Position numbers and translations under genes: made by a program
From: an uncultured Acetatifactor sp.
GTDB lineage: Bacteria; Bacillota; Clostridia; Lachnospirales; Lachnospiraceae
DNA: 64,000 nucleotides
Assembly: GCA_947586055.1 (NCBI GenBank)
Contig: CANPXL010000007.1
Coordinates: forward strand, 1 to 64,000
Direction: 5' to 3'
Part shown: piece after piece, positions 4,895 to 37,786 of the stretch
How positions within the stretch are numbered: the first letter of the stretch is position 1
Layout: each line of letters starts with the position of its first letter
The notes under the pieces: model-generated
What the model saw: only the letters and a program-made list of their open reading frames with translations
Database searches by the model: none
Told to the model about the DNA's origin: nothing

Positions 4895-5608
4895 ATGAAA
4901 ATTCCAAAAATGATATTATTTGATTATGGCCAGACGCTGATTGCAGAACAGAAATTTGACGGGGTAAAGGGAACGGAAGCTGTTTTATCGTACGCTGTAA
5001 AAAATAAATATTATTTGTCGGCAGAGCAGGTACAGGCCAGGGCAAATGCGATCAAGCAGGAGTTAGGAAGGTTTGATCCCGAAAAAAGGCATTTGTTTCA
5101 GATTGAGATACCGAACACAATGTTCACGCCGTATCTTTATGAATCTCTGGGAATTGAAATTGCATTGAGCAATTCTGAAATTGATACCGTATTCTGGAAC
5201 GCCGCCGCTCCGGGAACGCCGACAGAGGGGATAGAACACTTTCTCGAAATGGTAGGAAACAAGGGCATCCGCACAGGCGTTATCAGCAATATTTCCTATG
5301 CGCCTTCTGTGGTTGCGGAGCGTATCAATCGACTGCTTCCGGCGAACACTTTTGAATTTATCATTACATCAAGTAATTTCATGTTTCGCAAGCCAAACAG
5401 AAGAATCTTTGACCTGGCATTGGAAAAAGCCGGATTGCAGGCGGATGAAGTCTGGTATATCGGAGATCAGTACGAATGCGATGTGAAAGGTTCCTTAAAT
5501 GCCGGACTGTTTCCGGTCTGGTATATCGGGGCGATAGATCTGCCATACACAGAAGATAAAAGTATTCTGACAATAAAAACATGGAGTGAGATAGAGCGGT
5601 ATCTGTGA
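4895..5608 (+). CDS. HAD family hydrolase
   Basis: MKIPKMILFDYGQTLIAEQ; VISNISY; RKPNRRIFDLALEKAG; WYIGDQYECDVKGSLNAGL. SD AAGGAGA upstream of the ATG at 4895. Confidence 0.85.
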   Translation: MKIPKMILFDYGQTLIAEQKFDGVKGTEAVLSYAVKNKYYLSAEQVQARANAIKQELGRFDPEKRHLFQIEIPNTMFTPYLYESLGIEIALSNSEIDTVFWNAAAPGTPTEGIEHFLEMVGNKGIRTGVISNISYAPSVVAERINRLLPANTFEFIITSSNFMFRKPNRRIFDLALEKAGLQADEVWYIGDQYECDVKGSLNAGLFPVWYIGAIDLPYTEDKSILTIKTWSEIERYL

Positions 5609-7981: not shown

Positions 7982-8014
7982 TGTCGTTTGCGCAAAAAAG
8001 ATGTCGTTTGTGCA
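7982..8014 (+). promoter_or_regulatory. Direct repeats consistent with a LytTR regulator binding site
   Basis: TGTCGTTTGCGCA (7982-7994) and TGTCGTTTGTGCA (8002-8014), 20 bp apart (about two helical turns), between the LytTR regulator gene and the lipoprotein gene. Confidence 0.65.
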
Positions 8015-8040
8015 GACAGTATTTTACTATTTTTTTCGCT

Positions 8041-8079
8041 GTGATATAAATAAAGCACTAAAAAATTGATTTATATCAC
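8041..8079 (+). promoter_or_regulatory. Perfect 11-bp inverted repeat just upstream of the lipoprotein SD
   Basis: GTGATATAAAT (8041-8051) / ATTTATATCAC (8069-8079), 17-nt loop. Confidence 0.6.
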
Positions 8080-8091
8080 GAGGGAACTATT

Positions 8092-9561
8092 ATGATGAAA
8101 AAAATTTTTTTGTTAAGTTTGGTATGTTTCGTTTTGCTGTCTGCCTGTTCTACAAATAAGGATTCAGGATATGCGGATGTTACTCCTGGTCAAATTGAAA
8201 ATACTGGTAACAATCATAACTTGTCTGAAGAAAGCACTTCTGATATACGTCAGACATCCCCAACTGAGATGCACGAACCTGAGCAATCCACAGCCATAGT
8301 GGAAATGCCAGAAACTGAATCTCAGGCAGAAACGACCCAAATCCGAGAAATTTATGAAGGTGAATATACGGGTAATACTATAAGTGACCCTGATTATGAC
8401 GGTCTGGAGATTCAAAAAAATGAGGATGGTACTTATGCAATACAGGTTAAAATCCCGTTCCTAACCAAGTTGTATGAATGCACAGGCTATCAGTCAGAAA
8501 ATATAATTCTGTTTTCCACATCTGAATGGGGTGCAGACAAAAAGGTGGAGGGAAGCATCTCTTTTGATGGTGATTCTGCCACAGTGGCATTTACTGCTGG
8601 ATGGTATCAGACAGCCACTACGGAAAGCTCCTATCAATACCATAAAACATCAGATATTCCTAATCTGGGAAATGGCCCTGATGCGCACCCCGACTACCGT
8701 TCTTTTACAGGAGAATACTGCGATGACAACGGTGATCCAAGTCTTGAAATCCAGCAAAATGAGGATGGCTCTTATCTCATACAGATTAGCATTTTCCGTG
8801 AAATAGGATATGATGCGTGTATTGGCAGTCCAGAGAAAGGAAAAATGTCTTTCACATCCGATGAAAGAGGCAGTGTAAGCGGTTGCATAGTTCTTGATAA
8901 TGACCTTGCGGTTGTCCAGTTTGAACAGATTGGTTATTTTGAAAATTCTAAAGTAACAACCTATCTGTTTCATAAGACATCCGACAATCCAAATACAAAA
9001 GGAAATATTAATTATCAAGAACTGGGGATTCAAAAACAGGAATACCCGTCAGAATTTTCCATGGGGGAAAATTTAAAAACCGCCATTACGCAATTAGCGC
9101 TCAGCTATGATCATTTTGGCAAGGATTCTGTCAGCAGCGAGAGCTGGAAAGAAATTTTCATTGCTCGGTTTATTCAAAATTCAAGGGCATCGTTTGATTA
9201 TTTGGATCGGATATCGGATGAAAATGACGGGAAGATCAGTGTGGATCAGCTAAATTACATTCAATATTCGCTTACGAATACAGAAGTGGATTTTTCGTCT
9301 GAGGCAGGCGATTCCGTCAATAGATATGATGCTGCCAGTTCGTTGAATTACGGCTGGATTTCCAGATATAGTTGCGAAGAGACAAAGGACGGAGTAATCG
9401 TCACAGCTGATTTTGAAGTAGGGTATGATGGAACGGATTCCACGCAAAAGCGCCAAATAACGGTTGAATTGATCAAAAACCCGTATAGCTGTTTCGATGG
9501 ATATAGCGTGATTACGATTTCATCGGAGACAGGAAATTCTGATCCTGAACAACAGAATTAG
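8092..9561 (+). CDS. Lipoprotein with two tandem homologous about 100-aa domains plus a C-terminal domain
   Basis: Lipobox LLSACS. Repeat 1 'YEGEYTGN...GLEIQKNEDGTYAIQVKI...YHKTSDIPN' and repeat 2 'FTGEYCDD...SLEIQQNEDGSYLIQISI...FHKTSDNPN'. Confidence 0.85.
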   Translation: MMKKIFLLSLVCFVLLSACSTNKDSGYADVTPGQIENTGNNHNLSEESTSDIRQTSPTEMHEPEQSTAIVEMPETESQAETTQIREIYEGEYTGNTISDPDYDGLEIQKNEDGTYAIQVKIPFLTKLYECTGYQSENIILFSTSEWGADKKVEGSISFDGDSATVAFTAGWYQTATTESSYQYHKTSDIPNLGNGPDAHPDYRSFTGEYCDDNGDPSLEIQQNEDGSYLIQISIFREIGYDACIGSPEKGKMSFTSDERGSVSGCIVLDNDLAVVQFEQIGYFENSKVTTYLFHKTSDNPNTKGNINYQELGIQKQEYPSEFSMGENLKTAITQLALSYDHFGKDSVSSESWKEIFIARFIQNSRASFDYLDRISDENDGKISVDQLNYIQYSLTNTEVDFSSEAGDSVNRYDAASSLNYGWISRYSCEETKDGVIVTADFEVGYDGTDSTQKRQITVELIKNPYSCFDGYSVITISSETGNSDPEQQN

Positions 9562-9623
9562 CTGAATTCGTAAGGCAAAATAACGGAAAGAATTTTAAGA
9601 TTACATTCTAATGAAACAGAAAG

Positions 9624-9654
9624 GCAGAGATTCGAGAGAGTCCCTGCTTTTTTT
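9624..9654 (+). terminator. Rho-independent terminator downstream of the lipoprotein gene
   Basis: Imperfect stem GCAGAGAT...GTCCCTGC followed by TTTTTTT. Confidence 0.5.
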
Positions 9655-9882
9655 GCAAAAAATAAGCGTAACTTCTATTTATATAAAGAACGGATATTTT
9701 GGTATCGTGTCGTTTTTGGTCAGAATTGTCCTGCAATATGCGGTTGAAATTTGAAGTCGACAATATAATAATAAAAGCGTTAAGCATCCACAATTTAGGA
9801 ATGGGTCTTGAAGAAGAGATCATTTGTTGATAAAATAGCATTACCAAAATCCGTGCAATGCACGAAAATAAGGAGTGGTGTT

Positions 9883-11136
9883 ATGGAGATCAGAAGAGAT
9901 GCGTACCTTGAACAGTTAAAAATAAGAAAAGATAATGGTATGATCAAGGTCATCACGGGAATCAGAAGATGTGGCAAGTCATTTCTGTTATTTGTGCTGT
10001 TTAAGAAGTATTTATTGGAGAACGGCGTGGATAGGGAACACATCATTGAGATTGCATTGGATGGTATTGAGAATGAGGAACTGCGGGATCCCAAGAAGTG
10101 TTATCAGTATATCAAAGACGCAATGAAAGATGATCAAAAGTATTATCTGCTCTTAGATGAAGTACAGTTTATGCCACGATTCGAGGAAGTGCTGAACAGT
10201 CTGCTGCGCATAAGCAACATTGACGTATATGTGACTGGCAGCAATTCTAAGTTTTTATCAAGCGATATTGTAACCGAATTTAGAGGCAGGGGGGATGAGA
10301 TCAGAATTTATCCGCTGTCCTTTGCGGAGTTCTACGCGGCTTTTGATGGAGATTATGACGATGCCTGGGAGGAATATATGACATACGGCGGACTGCCGCA
10401 GGCAGTACAGTTTACCGAAGAGCGTCAAAAGGCGGAGTATCTTAAAAATATGTTTACCAATGTTTATATAAAGGATGTGGTAGAGCGGAACCGGATTCAG
10501 AATGATAATGAAATTGGAATTTTGGCAGATATTCTTGCATCTGCCATAGGTTCACCGACCAATCCGACTAAAATATCAAATACCTTTAAGAGCGAGCAGG
10601 GAATCACTTATAGCAACAAAACCATATCCAATCATATAGATTATCTGGAAGAGGCTTTTTTGATTTCTAAGGCGGAGCGGTATGACATTAAAGGCAGAAA
10701 ATATGTGGGAGCAAATCTGAAATATTATTTTACGGATATCGGTCTTAGAAATGCCAGATTGAACTTTAGGCAGCAGGAGCCTACGCATATTATGGAGAAC
10801 ATTGTTTATAATGAGCTGCTTGTGCGGGGCTGCAATGTGGATGTCGGTATTGTGGATGTATTCGAGAAGAATAGTGAAGGAAAAAGGGTTCATAAACAGT
10901 TGGAGATTGACTTTGTAGTCAATCGGGGCAGTCAGAGGTATTATATTCAGGTAGCTTATGACATGACTTCCGAGGAAAAACAGACCCAGGAGTTTCATTC
11001 GTTTAGAAATATCCCGGATTCATTTAAGAAGATTTTGATAGTAAATGGAAGCCAAAAACCTTGGAGAAATGATGAAGGATTTGTGATTATGGGTATGAAA
11101 TATTTTCTGCTCAATGCGGACAGTTTGGAATTTTAA
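9883..11136 (+). CDS. AAA ATPase with DUF4143-type C-terminus
   Basis: MEIRRDAYLEQLKIRKDNGMIKVITGIRRCGKSFLLF (Walker A), YYLLLDEVQF (Walker B), VTGSNSKFLS; SD AAGGAGTGG. Confidence 0.88.
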   Translation: MEIRRDAYLEQLKIRKDNGMIKVITGIRRCGKSFLLFVLFKKYLLENGVDREHIIEIALDGIENEELRDPKKCYQYIKDAMKDDQKYYLLLDEVQFMPRFEEVLNSLLRISNIDVYVTGSNSKFLSSDIVTEFRGRGDEIRIYPLSFAEFYAAFDGDYDDAWEEYMTYGGLPQAVQFTEERQKAEYLKNMFTNVYIKDVVERNRIQNDNEIGILADILASAIGSPTNPTKISNTFKSEQGITYSNKTISNHIDYLEEAFLISKAERYDIKGRKYVGANLKYYFTDIGLRNARLNFRQQEPTHIMENIVYNELLVRGCNVDVGIVDVFEKNSEGKRVHKQLEIDFVVNRGSQRYYIQVAYDMTSEEKQTQEFHSFRNIPDSFKKILIVNGSQKPWRNDEGFVIMGMKYFLLNADSLEF

Positions 11137-31893: not shown

Positions 31894-32484
31894 ATGAAAA
31901 AGAAGGGTCTGGGACATTTTCTGGCGCTCGCGGCAGTGTGCGGCGTATTGCTGGCAGGCTGCGGAAACAGCGAACATGTAATATCGGGAGAGCCGCAGGA
32001 GGGCGGCGCGGCGGAGAGTGCGTCCGATCAGGGCAGCGCTCCGCAGGAAGCCAAAAACACGGACGGCGCGGGGGGTTATGTGTTTGTGTACGGAGATGTG
32101 ACGATTTCCATGGACGAGGACGCTTCGTCCGTCACGGAAGCGCTGGGGGAGCCTGCTTCCTATTATGAAGCGGCGAGCTGCGCGTTTGAGGGTCTGGACA
32201 AGATCTATACCTACAGCGGCTTTGAACTGCAGACCTATCCCACAGACGGGAAAGATTTTGTGTCCCTTGTGGTTTTAAAGGATGATTCCGTGGCTACGCC
32301 GGAGGGCGTGGCGCTTGGGGATACGAAAGCGAAGGTGGAGGAAAGGTACGGAACGGATTATCAGGAAGACGGCGCGCTGCTCACATATCAGAAGGGCGGT
32401 ATGAAGCTGTGTTTTATCCTGGACGGCGATCAGGTCGTTTCCATTGAATACCGGTCCGATGTGCTGGAAGGAGGCGACGCATGA
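31894..32484 (+). CDS. Lipoprotein of unknown function
   Basis: MKKKGLGHFLALAAVCGVLLAGCGNS lipobox; SD GAGGAAGG. Confidence 0.8.
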   Translation: MKKKGLGHFLALAAVCGVLLAGCGNSEHVISGEPQEGGAAESASDQGSAPQEAKNTDGAGGYVFVYGDVTISMDEDASSVTEALGEPASYYEAASCAFEGLDKIYTYSGFELQTYPTDGKDFVSLVVLKDDSVATPEGVALGDTKAKVEERYGTDYQEDGALLTYQKGGMKLCFILDGDQVVSIEYRSDVLEGGDA

Positions 32485-33983
32485 ACCTCAGGACAGCTTA
32501 CGAGCCTTATTTTAAAATTGGGGCGGCCGTTTCCCGCTGGGATCTTTTTACGCCCGCCCGCATGGCGCTTTTGAAGGAACAGTTTAACAGCTTTACCTGC
32601 GAAAATGACATGAAGCCCATGTATTTTCTGGACCGCAGGGAAAACAGACTGCACCCCCAGGAGCACAATCTCTCTCCGGCCCTGACCTTTCGGACGGCGG
32701 CCGCGTATCTGGAGTTTGCAAAAGAGAGCGGCGTTCCCATGCGGGGCCACACGCTTGTCTGGCATAACCAGACGCCGAAGTGGTTCTTTCATGAGAACTA
32801 TGACGAGACGGCAAGGCTGGCGGACCGGGAGACGATGCTCGCCAGGATGGAAAATTATATTCACGGCGTTCTCGCCTTTGTGCAGGAGAACTACCCCGGC
32901 GTGATCTATGCATGGGACGTGGTAAACGAGGCGGTCAATGACGGGGATCTGAGGGACTCTCTCTGGCTGAAGACTGTGGGCAGGGATTTTGTGATAAAAG
33001 CCTTTGAGTACGCCAGAAAGTATGCGGATCCCGATGTGGCGCTGTTCTATAACGACTATGAGACCGCGCAGGAGTGGAAGAGAGATCTGATCATCAGCGA
33101 GATTCTGATCCCGCTGCGGGAAAGGGGCCTGATAGACGGTATGGGGATGCAGTCCCATCTGCTGATGGATCATCCGGATCCCAGCCTGTATGAGAAGGCC
33201 CTGTACATGTTCGGCGCGCTGGGGCTGCAGATTCAGATCACGGAGCTTGACATGCACAATCCGGACCCGTCGGAGGAATCCATGCATCGGCTGGCGCTGC
33301 GCTACCGGAAGTTCTTTGAGATCCTTCTGGAGGCAAAGAAGACGGGCAGGGCGAATGTGACGGCCGTCACATTCTGGAACCTTCTGGACGAGACCAGCTG
33401 GCTGTCCGGCTTTCGGCGGGAGCCGAGCTATCCGCTGCTGTTTCACGGAAAATGCGAGGCGAAGGAAGCTTATTACGCCGTGCTGAGGGCGGCGGTGGCG
33501 GAAGAAGAGATCGACGTCTGGCATCTGGAGGCGGAAGAAAAGGATTTTGAGACGGCGGAAATGCCGGAAGAGAGAAGGGAGAGAGACGGTATGCAGGAGG
33601 TTTATGATTTCCTGAAAGAGTGCGGGGTATATTATCTGGCGACGGCGGATGGGGATCAGCCGAGAGTCAGGCCCTTCGGCACAGTGGATCTTTTTGAAGG
33701 CAGGCTTTATATCCAGACGGGAAAGAGCAAGGAGGTCGCCAGACAGCTTAAGGCCAACCCCAGGGCGGAGATCTGTGCGTTTATGGACGGAACCTGGCTG
33801 CGCGTGGCGGGCAGGCTCATCCCGGACGAACGCGTGGAGGCAAAGGCGCATCTGCTGGACGCCTATCCCAACTTAAAGGATATGTATTCCGCAGAGGATG
33901 ACAATACGTTAGTCCTGTATTTTCAGGATGCTGTCGCCACCTTTTCCTCCTTTGGCGCGCCGCCCAGAACCGTCCGGTTTTAA
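32481..33983 (+). CDS. GH10 endo-1,4-beta-xylanase-like domain fused in frame to a PPOX/flavin-nucleotide-binding domain
   Basis: GH10 'SFTCENDMKPMYF...GHTLVWHNQTPKWF...YAWDVVNEAVNDG...QIQITELDMHNP'; C-terminus from M at 33591 'MQEVYDFLKECGVYYLATADGDQPRVRPFG...LYIQTGKSKEVARQLKANPRAEICAF'. Confidence 0.88.
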   Translation: MNLRTAYEPYFKIGAAVSRWDLFTPARMALLKEQFNSFTCENDMKPMYFLDRRENRLHPQEHNLSPALTFRTAAAYLEFAKESGVPMRGHTLVWHNQTPKWFFHENYDETARLADRETMLARMENYIHGVLAFVQENYPGVIYAWDVVNEAVNDGDLRDSLWLKTVGRDFVIKAFEYARKYADPDVALFYNDYETAQEWKRDLIISEILIPLRERGLIDGMGMQSHLLMDHPDPSLYEKALYMFGALGLQIQITELDMHNPDPSEESMHRLALRYRKFFEILLEAKKTGRANVTAVTFWNLLDETSWLSGFRREPSYPLLFHGKCEAKEAYYAVLRAAVAEEEIDVWHLEAEEKDFETAEMPEERRERDGMQEVYDFLKECGVYYLATADGDQPRVRPFGTVDLFEGRLYIQTGKSKEVARQLKANPRAEICAFMDGTWLRVAGRLIPDERVEAKAHLLDAYPNLKDMYSAEDDNTLVLYFQDAVATFSSFGAPPRTVRF

Positions 33984-34934: not shown

Positions 34935-35056
34935 GCGCGTTTTTTGGCCGCTTCTTCTTCCCAAACGCGGGAATTTCTGGTATGCTGGAACAGGAAGAAC
35001 GTCATCGGCGCGCGGGGGACACGGATGCGGCCGATGGAGAAAAGGGAGCGGCAGCT

Positions 35057-37786
35057 ATGCGGGGAAAGCAGCTTGTTATCGGAATCCTGGCCCATGTGGA
35101 CGCGGGAAAGACCACCCTTTCCGAAGCGATGCTCTATACGGCGGGGGCGCTTCGGAAACCGGGGAGAGTAGATCACGGCGACGCCTTTCTGGATCATTTT
35201 GCCCTGGAGAGAGCGCGGGGGATCACCATCTTTTCCAAGCAGGCCGGGCTGTCCTGGGAGGGACTGGAAATGACGCTGCTGGACACGCCGGGTCATGTGG
35301 ACTTTTGCGCGGAGATGGAGCGGACGCTTCAGGTGCTGGATTACGCCATACTTGTGGTCAGCGCTTCCGACGGGGTACAGGGGCATACCGCCACGCTCTG
35401 GCGGCTGCTGGCCCGGTACAAAATTCCGGTATTCCTTTTTGTGAACAAGATGGACCGGCCGGATACGGACCGGGAGAGACTGCTGGATCAGCTCAGGAAA
35501 AAGCTGGATCAAAACTGCATGGATTTCGGACAGGGAAGAGAGCGGGAGACGGAATTTCTGGAAGGGCTGTCCCTGTGCGATGAGAAACTGCTGGAGGAAT
35601 ATCTGGAAACGGCTTCCCTGTCGGAGACCTCCGTGACGGAAGCCGTCCGCCGAAGAAAGATCTTTCCCTGCTATTTCGGGTCCGCGCTGCACCTTGAGGG
35701 CGTGGAGGAACTGCTCGGAGGACTGCGCAGGTACACGGCGCTGCCGGAATATCCGGAGGCGTTCGGCGCGCGGGTGTACAAGATCTCGCGGGATGCGGCG
35801 GGAACCCGGCTGACACACTTAAAGGTTACGGGCGGCGCTCTGCGGGTGAAGATGCCTTTGGGCGGAAGGAGCGGGCAGGAGGATGCGGAACAGGGAAAAG
35901 CGGAAAAAGCGGATCAGATCCGTGTGTATGACGGCGCGCAGTTTTTGACGGCGGAACGGGTGGAAGCAGGCGCAATCTGCGCCGTTACGGGACTGGAAAA
36001 GACGTTTGCGGGGCAGGGGCTGGGAGCGGAAGAGGACAGCGAACTTCCCGTTCTTATGCCGGTTCTGACGTATCGGCTGATCCTTCCCGAGGGCAGCGAC
36101 ATTCTGAAGGCGCTGGGACAGCTGCGCCAGCTGGAAGAGGAGGAGCCGCAGCTTCATCTGGTCTGGAAGGAGGCTGTGGGAGAGATCCATGTGCAGGTGA
36201 TGGGCGAGGTGCAGATCGAAATTCTGAAAAGCCTGATCCGGGAGCGGTTTGGGCTGGAGGCGGAGTTTGGAAGCGGCAGTATCGTCTACCGGGAGACCAT
36301 CGCCGCGCCGGTGGTGGGGATCGGACACTTTGAACCGCTGCGCCATTACGCCGAGGTGCATCTGCTGCTGGAGCCGGGGGAACCGGGCAGCGGCCTTCAG
36401 TTTGCCTCCGCCTGCAGCGAAGATGTGCTGGACCGGAACTGGCAGAGACTGATCCTCTCTCATCTGGAGGAAAAGACGCATCTTGGCGTGCTCACGGGTT
36501 CTGCCGTCACAGATATGAAGATCACATTGCTGACGGGGCGGGCGCACATAAAGCATACCGAGGGCGGGGATTTCCGTCAGGCCGTCTGCCGCGCCCTGCG
36601 CCAGGGACTGATGCAGGCGGAAAACATACTGCTGGAGCCGGTGTACGCTTTTACTCTGGAACTGCCTGCGGAGCAGCTGGGCAGAGCGATGACGGATATC
36701 CGGAGAAGGCACGGCAGCTTCGGCGCGCCCGTGACGGAAGGGGACAGAAGCATTCTGACAGGCAGCGCTCCGGCCGCGGAGTTGGGGTCTTATCAGAAGG
36801 AGGTCAGCGCCTATACCGGGGGGCGGGGAAGACTGACCTGCGCGTTAAAGGGATATGAGCCCTGTCACAACGCGGAGGAAGTGATCGCAGCCATTGGCTA
36901 CGACCCGCTGCAGGATACGGAGAATCCCTCTTCTTCCGTGTTTTGCGCCCACGGGGCGGGATATCTGGTGGAGTGGGATGACGTGGCGCGGTACGCCCAT
37001 GTGGAAAACGAATGGAAGCGCAGGGAAAGCGGGAATCCTGAGGAAACGGAAGGCTTCCGGATCCAGCCCAGGCCCCGGGAGGGACGCACGGATTATATCA
37101 CGCAGGAGGAGATCGAACAGATCTTTCAGAGCACCTACAAAAAGAGCGCGAAGGATTATGAACCGTACCGTTACAGCGGCCGGAATGCGGGCGCGGAGAC
37201 GGTTGCGGCCTCCGGCGGACAGGAGGGCGCGGCCGCGGACAAAAGGAGCCGGGCCGGCGCGGGACGGGGGCGGAAACCTTCGGACGCGGGTGAGGAAAGG
37301 GAATATCTTCTGGTGGACGGCTACAACATTATTTTTGCGTGGGAGGATCTGCGCGGCCTTGCGGCGGTCAATATCGACAGCGCCAGAGACAGGCTGATGG
37401 ACATCTGCTGCGACTATCAGGGGGACGCGGGCTGTGTGCTGATTCTGGTTTTCGACGCCTACAGGGTAAAGGGAAATCCCGGCTCTGTCCGGCAGTACCA
37501 TAACATATATGTGGTCTATACAAAGGAGGCCGAGACGGCGGATCAATACATCGAAAAGACGGTACACAGGATCGCGAAGAGCAGCCGTGTAACCGTCGCC
37601 ACCTCAGACGCTCTGGAACAGATGATCATTTGGGGGGCCGGCGCCGTGAGACTGTCCGCGGCGGGATTCCGGGAGACGGTGGAGTCGGCCCGGGCAAGCC
37701 GAAGAGAGAAATATTCCGCTCAGAGCCGGGTGTTCACGTCGCCGTCCGTGCCCGATTTCACGGACGCCCCGCCCAAAACCACATAG
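35057..37786 (+). CDS. TetM/EF-G-like translational GTPase fused to C-terminal Rae1/YacP-type NYN endoribonuclease domain
   Basis: G motifs 'AHVDAGKTT', 'RGITI', 'DTPGHVDF', 'NKMD'; EF-G-like domain IV 'SYQKEVSAYTGGRGRLTCALKGYEPC'; C-terminus (from about 37301) 'EYLLVDGYNIIFAWEDL...LVFDAYRVKG...VVYTKEAETADQYIEKTVH...VTVATSDALEQMIIWGAGAVRLSAAGF'. Confidence 0.92.
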   Translation: MRGKQLVIGILAHVDAGKTTLSEAMLYTAGALRKPGRVDHGDAFLDHFALERARGITIFSKQAGLSWEGLEMTLLDTPGHVDFCAEMERTLQVLDYAILVVSASDGVQGHTATLWRLLARYKIPVFLFVNKMDRPDTDRERLLDQLRKKLDQNCMDFGQGRERETEFLEGLSLCDEKLLEEYLETASLSETSVTEAVRRRKIFPCYFGSALHLEGVEELLGGLRRYTALPEYPEAFGARVYKISRDAAGTRLTHLKVTGGALRVKMPLGGRSGQEDAEQGKAEKADQIRVYDGAQFLTAERVEAGAICAVTGLEKTFAGQGLGAEEDSELPVLMPVLTYRLILPEGSDILKALGQLRQLEEEEPQLHLVWKEAVGEIHVQVMGEVQIEILKSLIRERFGLEAEFGSGSIVYRETIAAPVVGIGHFEPLRHYAEVHLLLEPGEPGSGLQFASACSEDVLDRNWQRLILSHLEEKTHLGVLTGSAVTDMKITLLTGRAHIKHTEGGDFRQAVCRALRQGLMQAENILLEPVYAFTLELPAEQLGRAMTDIRRRHGSFGAPVTEGDRSILTGSAPAAELGSYQKEVSAYTGGRGRLTCALKGYEPCHNAEEVIAAIGYDPLQDTENPSSSVFCAHGAGYLVEWDDVARYAHVENEWKRRESGNPEETEGFRIQPRPREGRTDYITQEEIEQIFQSTYKKSAKDYEPYRYSGRNAGAETVAASGGQEGAAADKRSRAGAGRGRKPSDAGEEREYLLVDGYNIIFAWEDLRGLAAVNIDSARDRLMDICCDYQGDAGCVLILVFDAYRVKGNPGSVRQYHNIYVVYTKEAETADQYIEKTVHRIAKSSRVTVATSDALEQMIIWGAGAVRLSAAGFRETVESARASRREKYSAQSRVFTSPSVPDFTDAPPKTT

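Follow-up and report, generated by a model that had tools for sequence, protein, structure and literature searches.

Most Lachnospiraceae carry a fusion of an EF-G-like translational GTPase with a Rae1-type NYN nuclease, and members of this group are present in hundreds of genomes. The fusion has replaced the ordinary Rae1 gene, a finding new in this analysis. The copy described here lies in a 64,000-nucleotide stretch of an uncultured Acetatifactor sp. genome (contig CANPXL010000007.1, positions 1 to 64,000; hereafter the window). Its product is probably a single-protein, ribosome-recruited mRNA endonuclease, a reading in which both recruitment and cutting are carried over from relatives of the two halves. 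The fusion, picked out in the first-pass annotation of the window, is not new as an architecture; Atkinson et al. (2015) reported that Tet proteins of ten Clostridiales species had gained a YacP-like NYN domain and suggested RNase-based resistance (PMC4342817). A literature search, which did not cover two central Rae1 papers, found no experimental study of the fusion.

Domain layout and distribution of the fusion

Pfam recovered GTP_EFTU (175 bits), EFG_III, EFG_IV, EFG_C, and NYN_YacP in that order (Table 1), as expected from the initial reading of an EF-G-type GTPase followed by a complete NYN domain. With all G motifs and domains III to V present, the protein falls within the EF2/EF-G translational GTPases. 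A 952-amino-acid frame opening with a TTG start differs from the 909-amino-acid product only in its longer N terminus. Searches of the PDB with phmmer matched TetO, TetM, and EF-G structures to residues 6 to 603 and the Bacillus subtilis YacP/Rae1 structure (5mq9) to residues 750 to 879 (E value, 1e−23), while the NYN_YacP match at residues 751 to 890 scored 151 bits against a cut-off of 24.6. The AlphaFold model (mean pLDDT, 80; pTM, 0.59) was confident for the GTPase and NYN parts, with residues 657 to 745 predicted to be disordered save for a helix, and EF-G structures were the best Foldseek matches to the predicted structure. The C-terminal extension was common to fused and unfused members of the subfamily and was not present in TetM, TetO, TetW, Tet(36), TetB(P), or EF-G.

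Table 1. Features of the fused gene and its product, in positions of the window
Feature	Coordinates	Strand	Basis
Probable ribosome-binding site AAAGGGAG	35040..35047	+	Sequence; ~10 nt 5′ of ATG
Complete fused gene, 909 aa: translational GTPase, C-terminal extension, linker, NYN/Rae1 nuclease	35057..37786	+	Stop-free translation, Pfam, phmmer against PDB, genome survey
G domain (GTP_EFTU, residues 7-225); P-loop AHVDAGKTT, RGITI, DTPGHVDF, NKMD	35075..35731	+	Pfam, alignment
EF-G-like domains III, IV, V (EFG_III 354-405, EFG_IV 408-521, EFG_C 525-605)	36116..36871	+	Pfam; AlphaFold model and Foldseek match to EF-G
Domain IV tip loop 3, GRAHIKHTEGGDFR (residues 494-507)	36536..36577	+	45-row alignment, Tet comparison
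Subfamily-specific C-terminal extension (residues 606-649, NP..SVFC.HGAG..V.W)	36872..37003	+	Alignment
Linker (residues 650-748), predicted disordered; helix 683-694 with conserved E..IF..TY motif	37004..37300	+	AlphaFold, alignment
NYN_YacP/Rae1-type nuclease domain (residues 749-890), catalytic-type D754, D800, D829, D851	37301..37726	+	Pfam, 5mq9 match, alignment

Conservation was assessed from an alignment of 45 fused homologues sharing 53 to 71% identity with the window protein. Positions of the P-loop (including D15, K18, and T19), RGITI, DTPG, and NKMD motifs were invariant, and the catalytic-type H80 was present in 44 of the 45. In loop 3, no variation was found at H497 or from K499 through R507. 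Within the NYN domain, D754, G755, Y756, N757, D800, D829, E833, S850, and D851 were invariant in all 45, and the four acidic residues (D754, D800, D829, and D851), together with N757 and S850, were identical in B. subtilis Rae1. The family score, the match to 5mq9, and the intact acidic site confirm the Rae1 identity that the first-pass annotation had given this domain.

When 84,980 GTDB genomes were scanned with a profile of domain IV and the C-terminal extension, at least ~600 loci were identified, and the fusion was encoded at 77 of the best 80. Where named, these 77 were all from Clostridia (Lachnospiraceae, Oscillospiraceae, Hungatella, Anaerovorax, Desulfosporosinus, and others); among the matches listed, the closest named relatives were uncultured Lachnospiraceae and Acetatifactor. 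The order of GTPase and NYN domain was preserved across many families. The concern that a sequencing or assembly error had joined two separate genes could be ruled out, as could chance, because 77 of the best 80 genome matches were fused in the same way; both domains were also under purifying selection (dN, 0.13 to 0.25; dS saturated). An NYN_YacP match was found in 180 of 200 sampled Lachnospiraceae genomes, and among the matches listed all but 13 of the NYN_YacP places lay within long frames. The protein was absent from 20 of the 200 genomes.

Two arrangements departed from the common form. Positions 5513 to 8035 of L148 (genome G429) encode a divergent 840-amino-acid fusion with a GTPase that is 40% identical and an NYN domain that falls outside the main fused clade; it possibly arose in a second, independent event, although the two branches are long. 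In L151 (genome G042), the GTPase and NYN domain lie in overlapping, different frames of one contig, either because the gene split recently or because sequencing introduced a frameshift.

The fusion is a chromosomal, single-copy gene, and phage and plasmid searches identified no copy on a typed mobile element; matches labeled as plasmid in Monoglobus and Agathobacter sit on large replicons typed as non-mobilizable. Two faecal phage records named "Bacteriophage sp." (MT835563.1 [H81] and MT835514.1 [H82]) encode near full-length fusions and may be bacterial contigs under the wrong label. Across 15 loci, no conserved neighbor or operon partner was identified, and the fusion is a solo gene; its neighbors in the window encode a thiamine transporter on one side and a GH2 glycosidase on the other. 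Elsewhere in the window (32481 to 33983, + strand), a single 500-amino-acid open reading frame unusually pairs a GH10 xylanase (residues 3 to 336) with a pyridoxamine-5′-phosphate-oxidase-like domain (residues 372 to 455), which could be a real fusion or reflect a lost stop codon.

Replacement of canonical rae1

In B. subtilis, rae1 sits in a cysS-mrnC-rlmB-rae1-sigH operon. The fusion does not occupy the rlmB-rae1-sigH location, which is a feature of canonical rae1 and not a functional criterion. Separate rae1 genes of Lachnospiraceae were found in the ancestral operon at L074, L075, and L078 (with sigH) and at L076 (with cysS, mrnC, and rlmB), while the operon neighbors were not found at L073, L077, or L058. 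Fused NYN domains and those separate Lachnospiraceae genes still in the ancestral operon formed one clade (99/99). Among 18 fused genomes examined, rlmB adjoined sigH with no Rae1 match between them in 12, rlmB was present with no adjacent Rae1 in a further 5, and rae1 was kept in the operon alongside the fusion in 1 (G524). The window genome, which is 97% complete, has the operon without rae1, leaving a gap of ~50 bp between rlmB and sigH. Its sole NYN_YacP domain is that of the fusion, and no standalone YacP was found in it, as had been suspected.

Across 341 genomes of the class, canonical rae1 was present in 1 of 122 fused genomes versus 96 of 219 others (p about 1e−21, a value that ignores shared ancestry), where the fused set was obtained by taking every genome that has the GTPase subfamily and subtracting those in which a copy is unfused, and so includes a few contig-end fragments. 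Second NYN copies in three fused genomes (G334, G399, and G439) scored 21 bits, below the family cut-off, and were therefore not counted as Rae1. Given that the fusion and canonical rae1 are nearly exclusive and that the rae1 slot in the operon is empty, the fusion most likely took over Rae1 function.

GTPases of the same subfamily without an NYN domain occur in Clostridia, Paenibacillus, and L. salivarius megaplasmids. Most formed a sister clade to the fused one in the tree. The L. salivarius protein branched within the fused clade and thus, on its phylogenetic placement, may have lost its NYN domain. One such unfused member (L090, an L. salivarius megaplasmid, positions 7998 to 9917) carries a TetM-family resistance name in RefSeq and is without the tetracycline-evicting loop; members of this type were found on many L. 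salivarius plasmids. Fused and unfused members were never found together in one genome (0 of 122; p = 0.0003, kinship ignored). In near-complete Lachnospiraceae genomes, an unlinked, unfused GTPase was present in 7 of 8 with a separate rae1 versus 0 of 15 without any NYN domain. Beyond this family, rae1 usually occurred without the GTPase (84 genomes), and the unfused GTPase was found without any NYN domain in 7 genomes. A class-wide co-dependence of separate rae1 and GTPase was weak among the non-fused genomes (p = 0.09) and was not retained.

A proposed role at the ribosome

Rae1 is an endonuclease that depends on translation and is believed to act from within the A site when ribosomes pause (PMC10100781, PMC6613710), and factors of the EF-G/Tet type put domain IV into the A site (PMC8161019). 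From these relatives we infer ribosome binding, GTPase activity, and A-site cleavage by the fusion, and the conservation of all G motifs and of the NYN acidic residues supports its reading as an endonuclease. Also in favor are the near exclusion between the fusion and canonical rae1, the clade that their NYN domains share, the lack of any genome with both fused and unfused GTPases, and the pairing of separate rae1 with an unfused GTPase in 7 of 8 near-complete Lachnospiraceae. In the mechanism proposed, the GTP form of the GTPase would bind paused ribosomes with a vacant A site, and domain IV would be placed in the decoding center. GTP hydrolysis would then release domain IV, and the flexible linker of ~100 residues would keep the NYN domain close, allowing it to enter the A site and cut the mRNA; the message would decay, and the ribosome could be rescued. 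Sequential use is proposed because domain IV and Rae1 cannot share the A site at once, and both the order of the hand-over and its trigger are speculative. Alternatively, the NYN domain could act on a neighboring, collided ribosome.

That one or the other, a hand-over or action on a neighboring ribosome, must be assumed weakens the case for an endonuclease, as do the genomes outside the Lachnospiraceae in which rae1 or the unfused GTPase occurs alone and the weak co-occurrence among non-fused genomes of the class. The link to ribosome-associated mRNA cleavage drawn in the first-pass annotation still offers the best reading, helped by the displacement of canonical rae1, although the A site cannot hold domain IV and Rae1 together; the rescue or stress role suggested there is conjectural. 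A broader proposal, which we hold tentatively and with somewhat more doubt than belief, is that the fusion could be a one-polypeptide bacterial counterpart of eukaryotic no-go decay, in which a dedicated GTPase, rather than a resistance factor, would bring to stalled ribosomes an endonuclease that cuts A-site mRNA, and that it has replaced free Rae1 across the Lachnospiraceae and much of the Clostridia. As a natural fusion that displaces Rae1, the protein names a candidate delivery partner for Rae1, and the question of how Rae1 reaches the ribosome and picks its targets becomes testable in one protein.

The two halves might instead have independent activities, the GTPase being an EF-G2-like stress translocase or recycling factor from which the NYN domain merely borrows ribosome localization. 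The many Clostridia with the GTPase and no NYN protein, or with rae1 and no GTPase, are in keeping with this, as is the histidine (H497) retained in loop 3 at the position of EF-G H583. We nevertheless regard it as unlikely, given that the fused order holds in many families, that the fused clade, L. salivarius aside, has retained the NYN domain throughout, and that the ancestral rae1 has been lost. Processing of rRNA or tRNA, in which the GTPase would dock on a ribosome or precursor while the NYN domain trimmed stable RNA, is an earlier suggestion for NYN/YacP proteins that PMC4342817 cites. It would suit the RNA-maturation genes mrnC and rlmB of the ancestral rae1 operon, but it is very improbable given that later work found B. 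subtilis Rae1 to act on mRNA and to need translation for this (PMC10100781) and that a tenth of the sampled Lachnospiraceae lack the protein altogether.

Relationship to tetracycline-resistance proteins and other known systems

A tetracycline-resistance label had been predicted for this protein, and RefSeq does name the Agathobacter and L. salivarius members "TetM/TetW/TetO/TetS family." The names, the EF-G-like architecture, and the published proposal (PMC4342817) are what favor a ribosome protection protein to which an RNase domain has been added. The GTPase subfamily, however, formed a clade of its own (100/100) apart from that of TetM, TetO, TetW, Tet(36), and TetB(P) (100/99), and alignment and tree together ruled out membership in TetB(P) or Tet(36). 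In loop 3, these resistance proteins carry SP(V/A)STPADFR, whereas the fused subfamily carries HxKHTEGGDFR; in loop 1, NP(F/Y)WA is replaced by EPLRHYAEV. TetM S508-P509-V510 aligned to I498-K499-H500, placing the invariant K499 where TetM has Pro509, the amino acid whose position overlaps with that of tetracycline (PMC7456112). The protein scored 399.9 bits against the NCBIfam tet_protect model (NF012153; cut-off, 775) and 313 bits against that of Otr(A) (cut-off, 900), the latter compared by profile only. The description of the GTPase as TetM-like thus holds in a broad sense only, for the GTPase stands in a clade of its own that lacks the tetracycline-evicting loop. Taken with its occurrence as a single-copy chromosomal gene across most of a family with no mobile neighbors, the clade, loops, and model score argue against the resistance label, and we consider a resistance function highly doubtful. 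Many gut commensals have a core translation gene recorded under that label, and counts of resistance genes in gut metagenomes would be inflated as a result.

Set against known systems, the NYN domain is 43 to 44% identical to B. subtilis Rae1/YacP (5mq9) and has the same acidic residues, whereas Rae1 is a standalone 170-amino-acid protein encoded in its operon with no GTPase. With EF-G, of which the window genome also has its own (L004), the fusion shares its fold and the loop 3 histidine, but it has a shorter G′ region, the C-terminal extension, and the NYN domain. TetM, TetO, TetW, Tet(36), and TetB(P) have the same EF-G-like domain order at 27 to 30% identity and differ in domain IV loops 1 and 3, in having neither extension nor nuclease, and in being mobile. 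The unfused proteins named "translation factor GTPase family protein" are 40 to 50% identical and have the same HxKHTxGGDFR loop and SVFC extension, but no NYN domain. The Tet-NYN group of Atkinson et al. (PMC4342817) has the same fused architecture, an EF-G/Tet-like translational GTPase followed by a YacP-like NYN domain in Clostridia, and the window protein belongs to it. The group, published but uncharacterized, was assigned there to the Tet resistance subfamily and counted in ten species, whereas here it forms a separate clade, is found in hundreds of genomes, and has replaced rae1.
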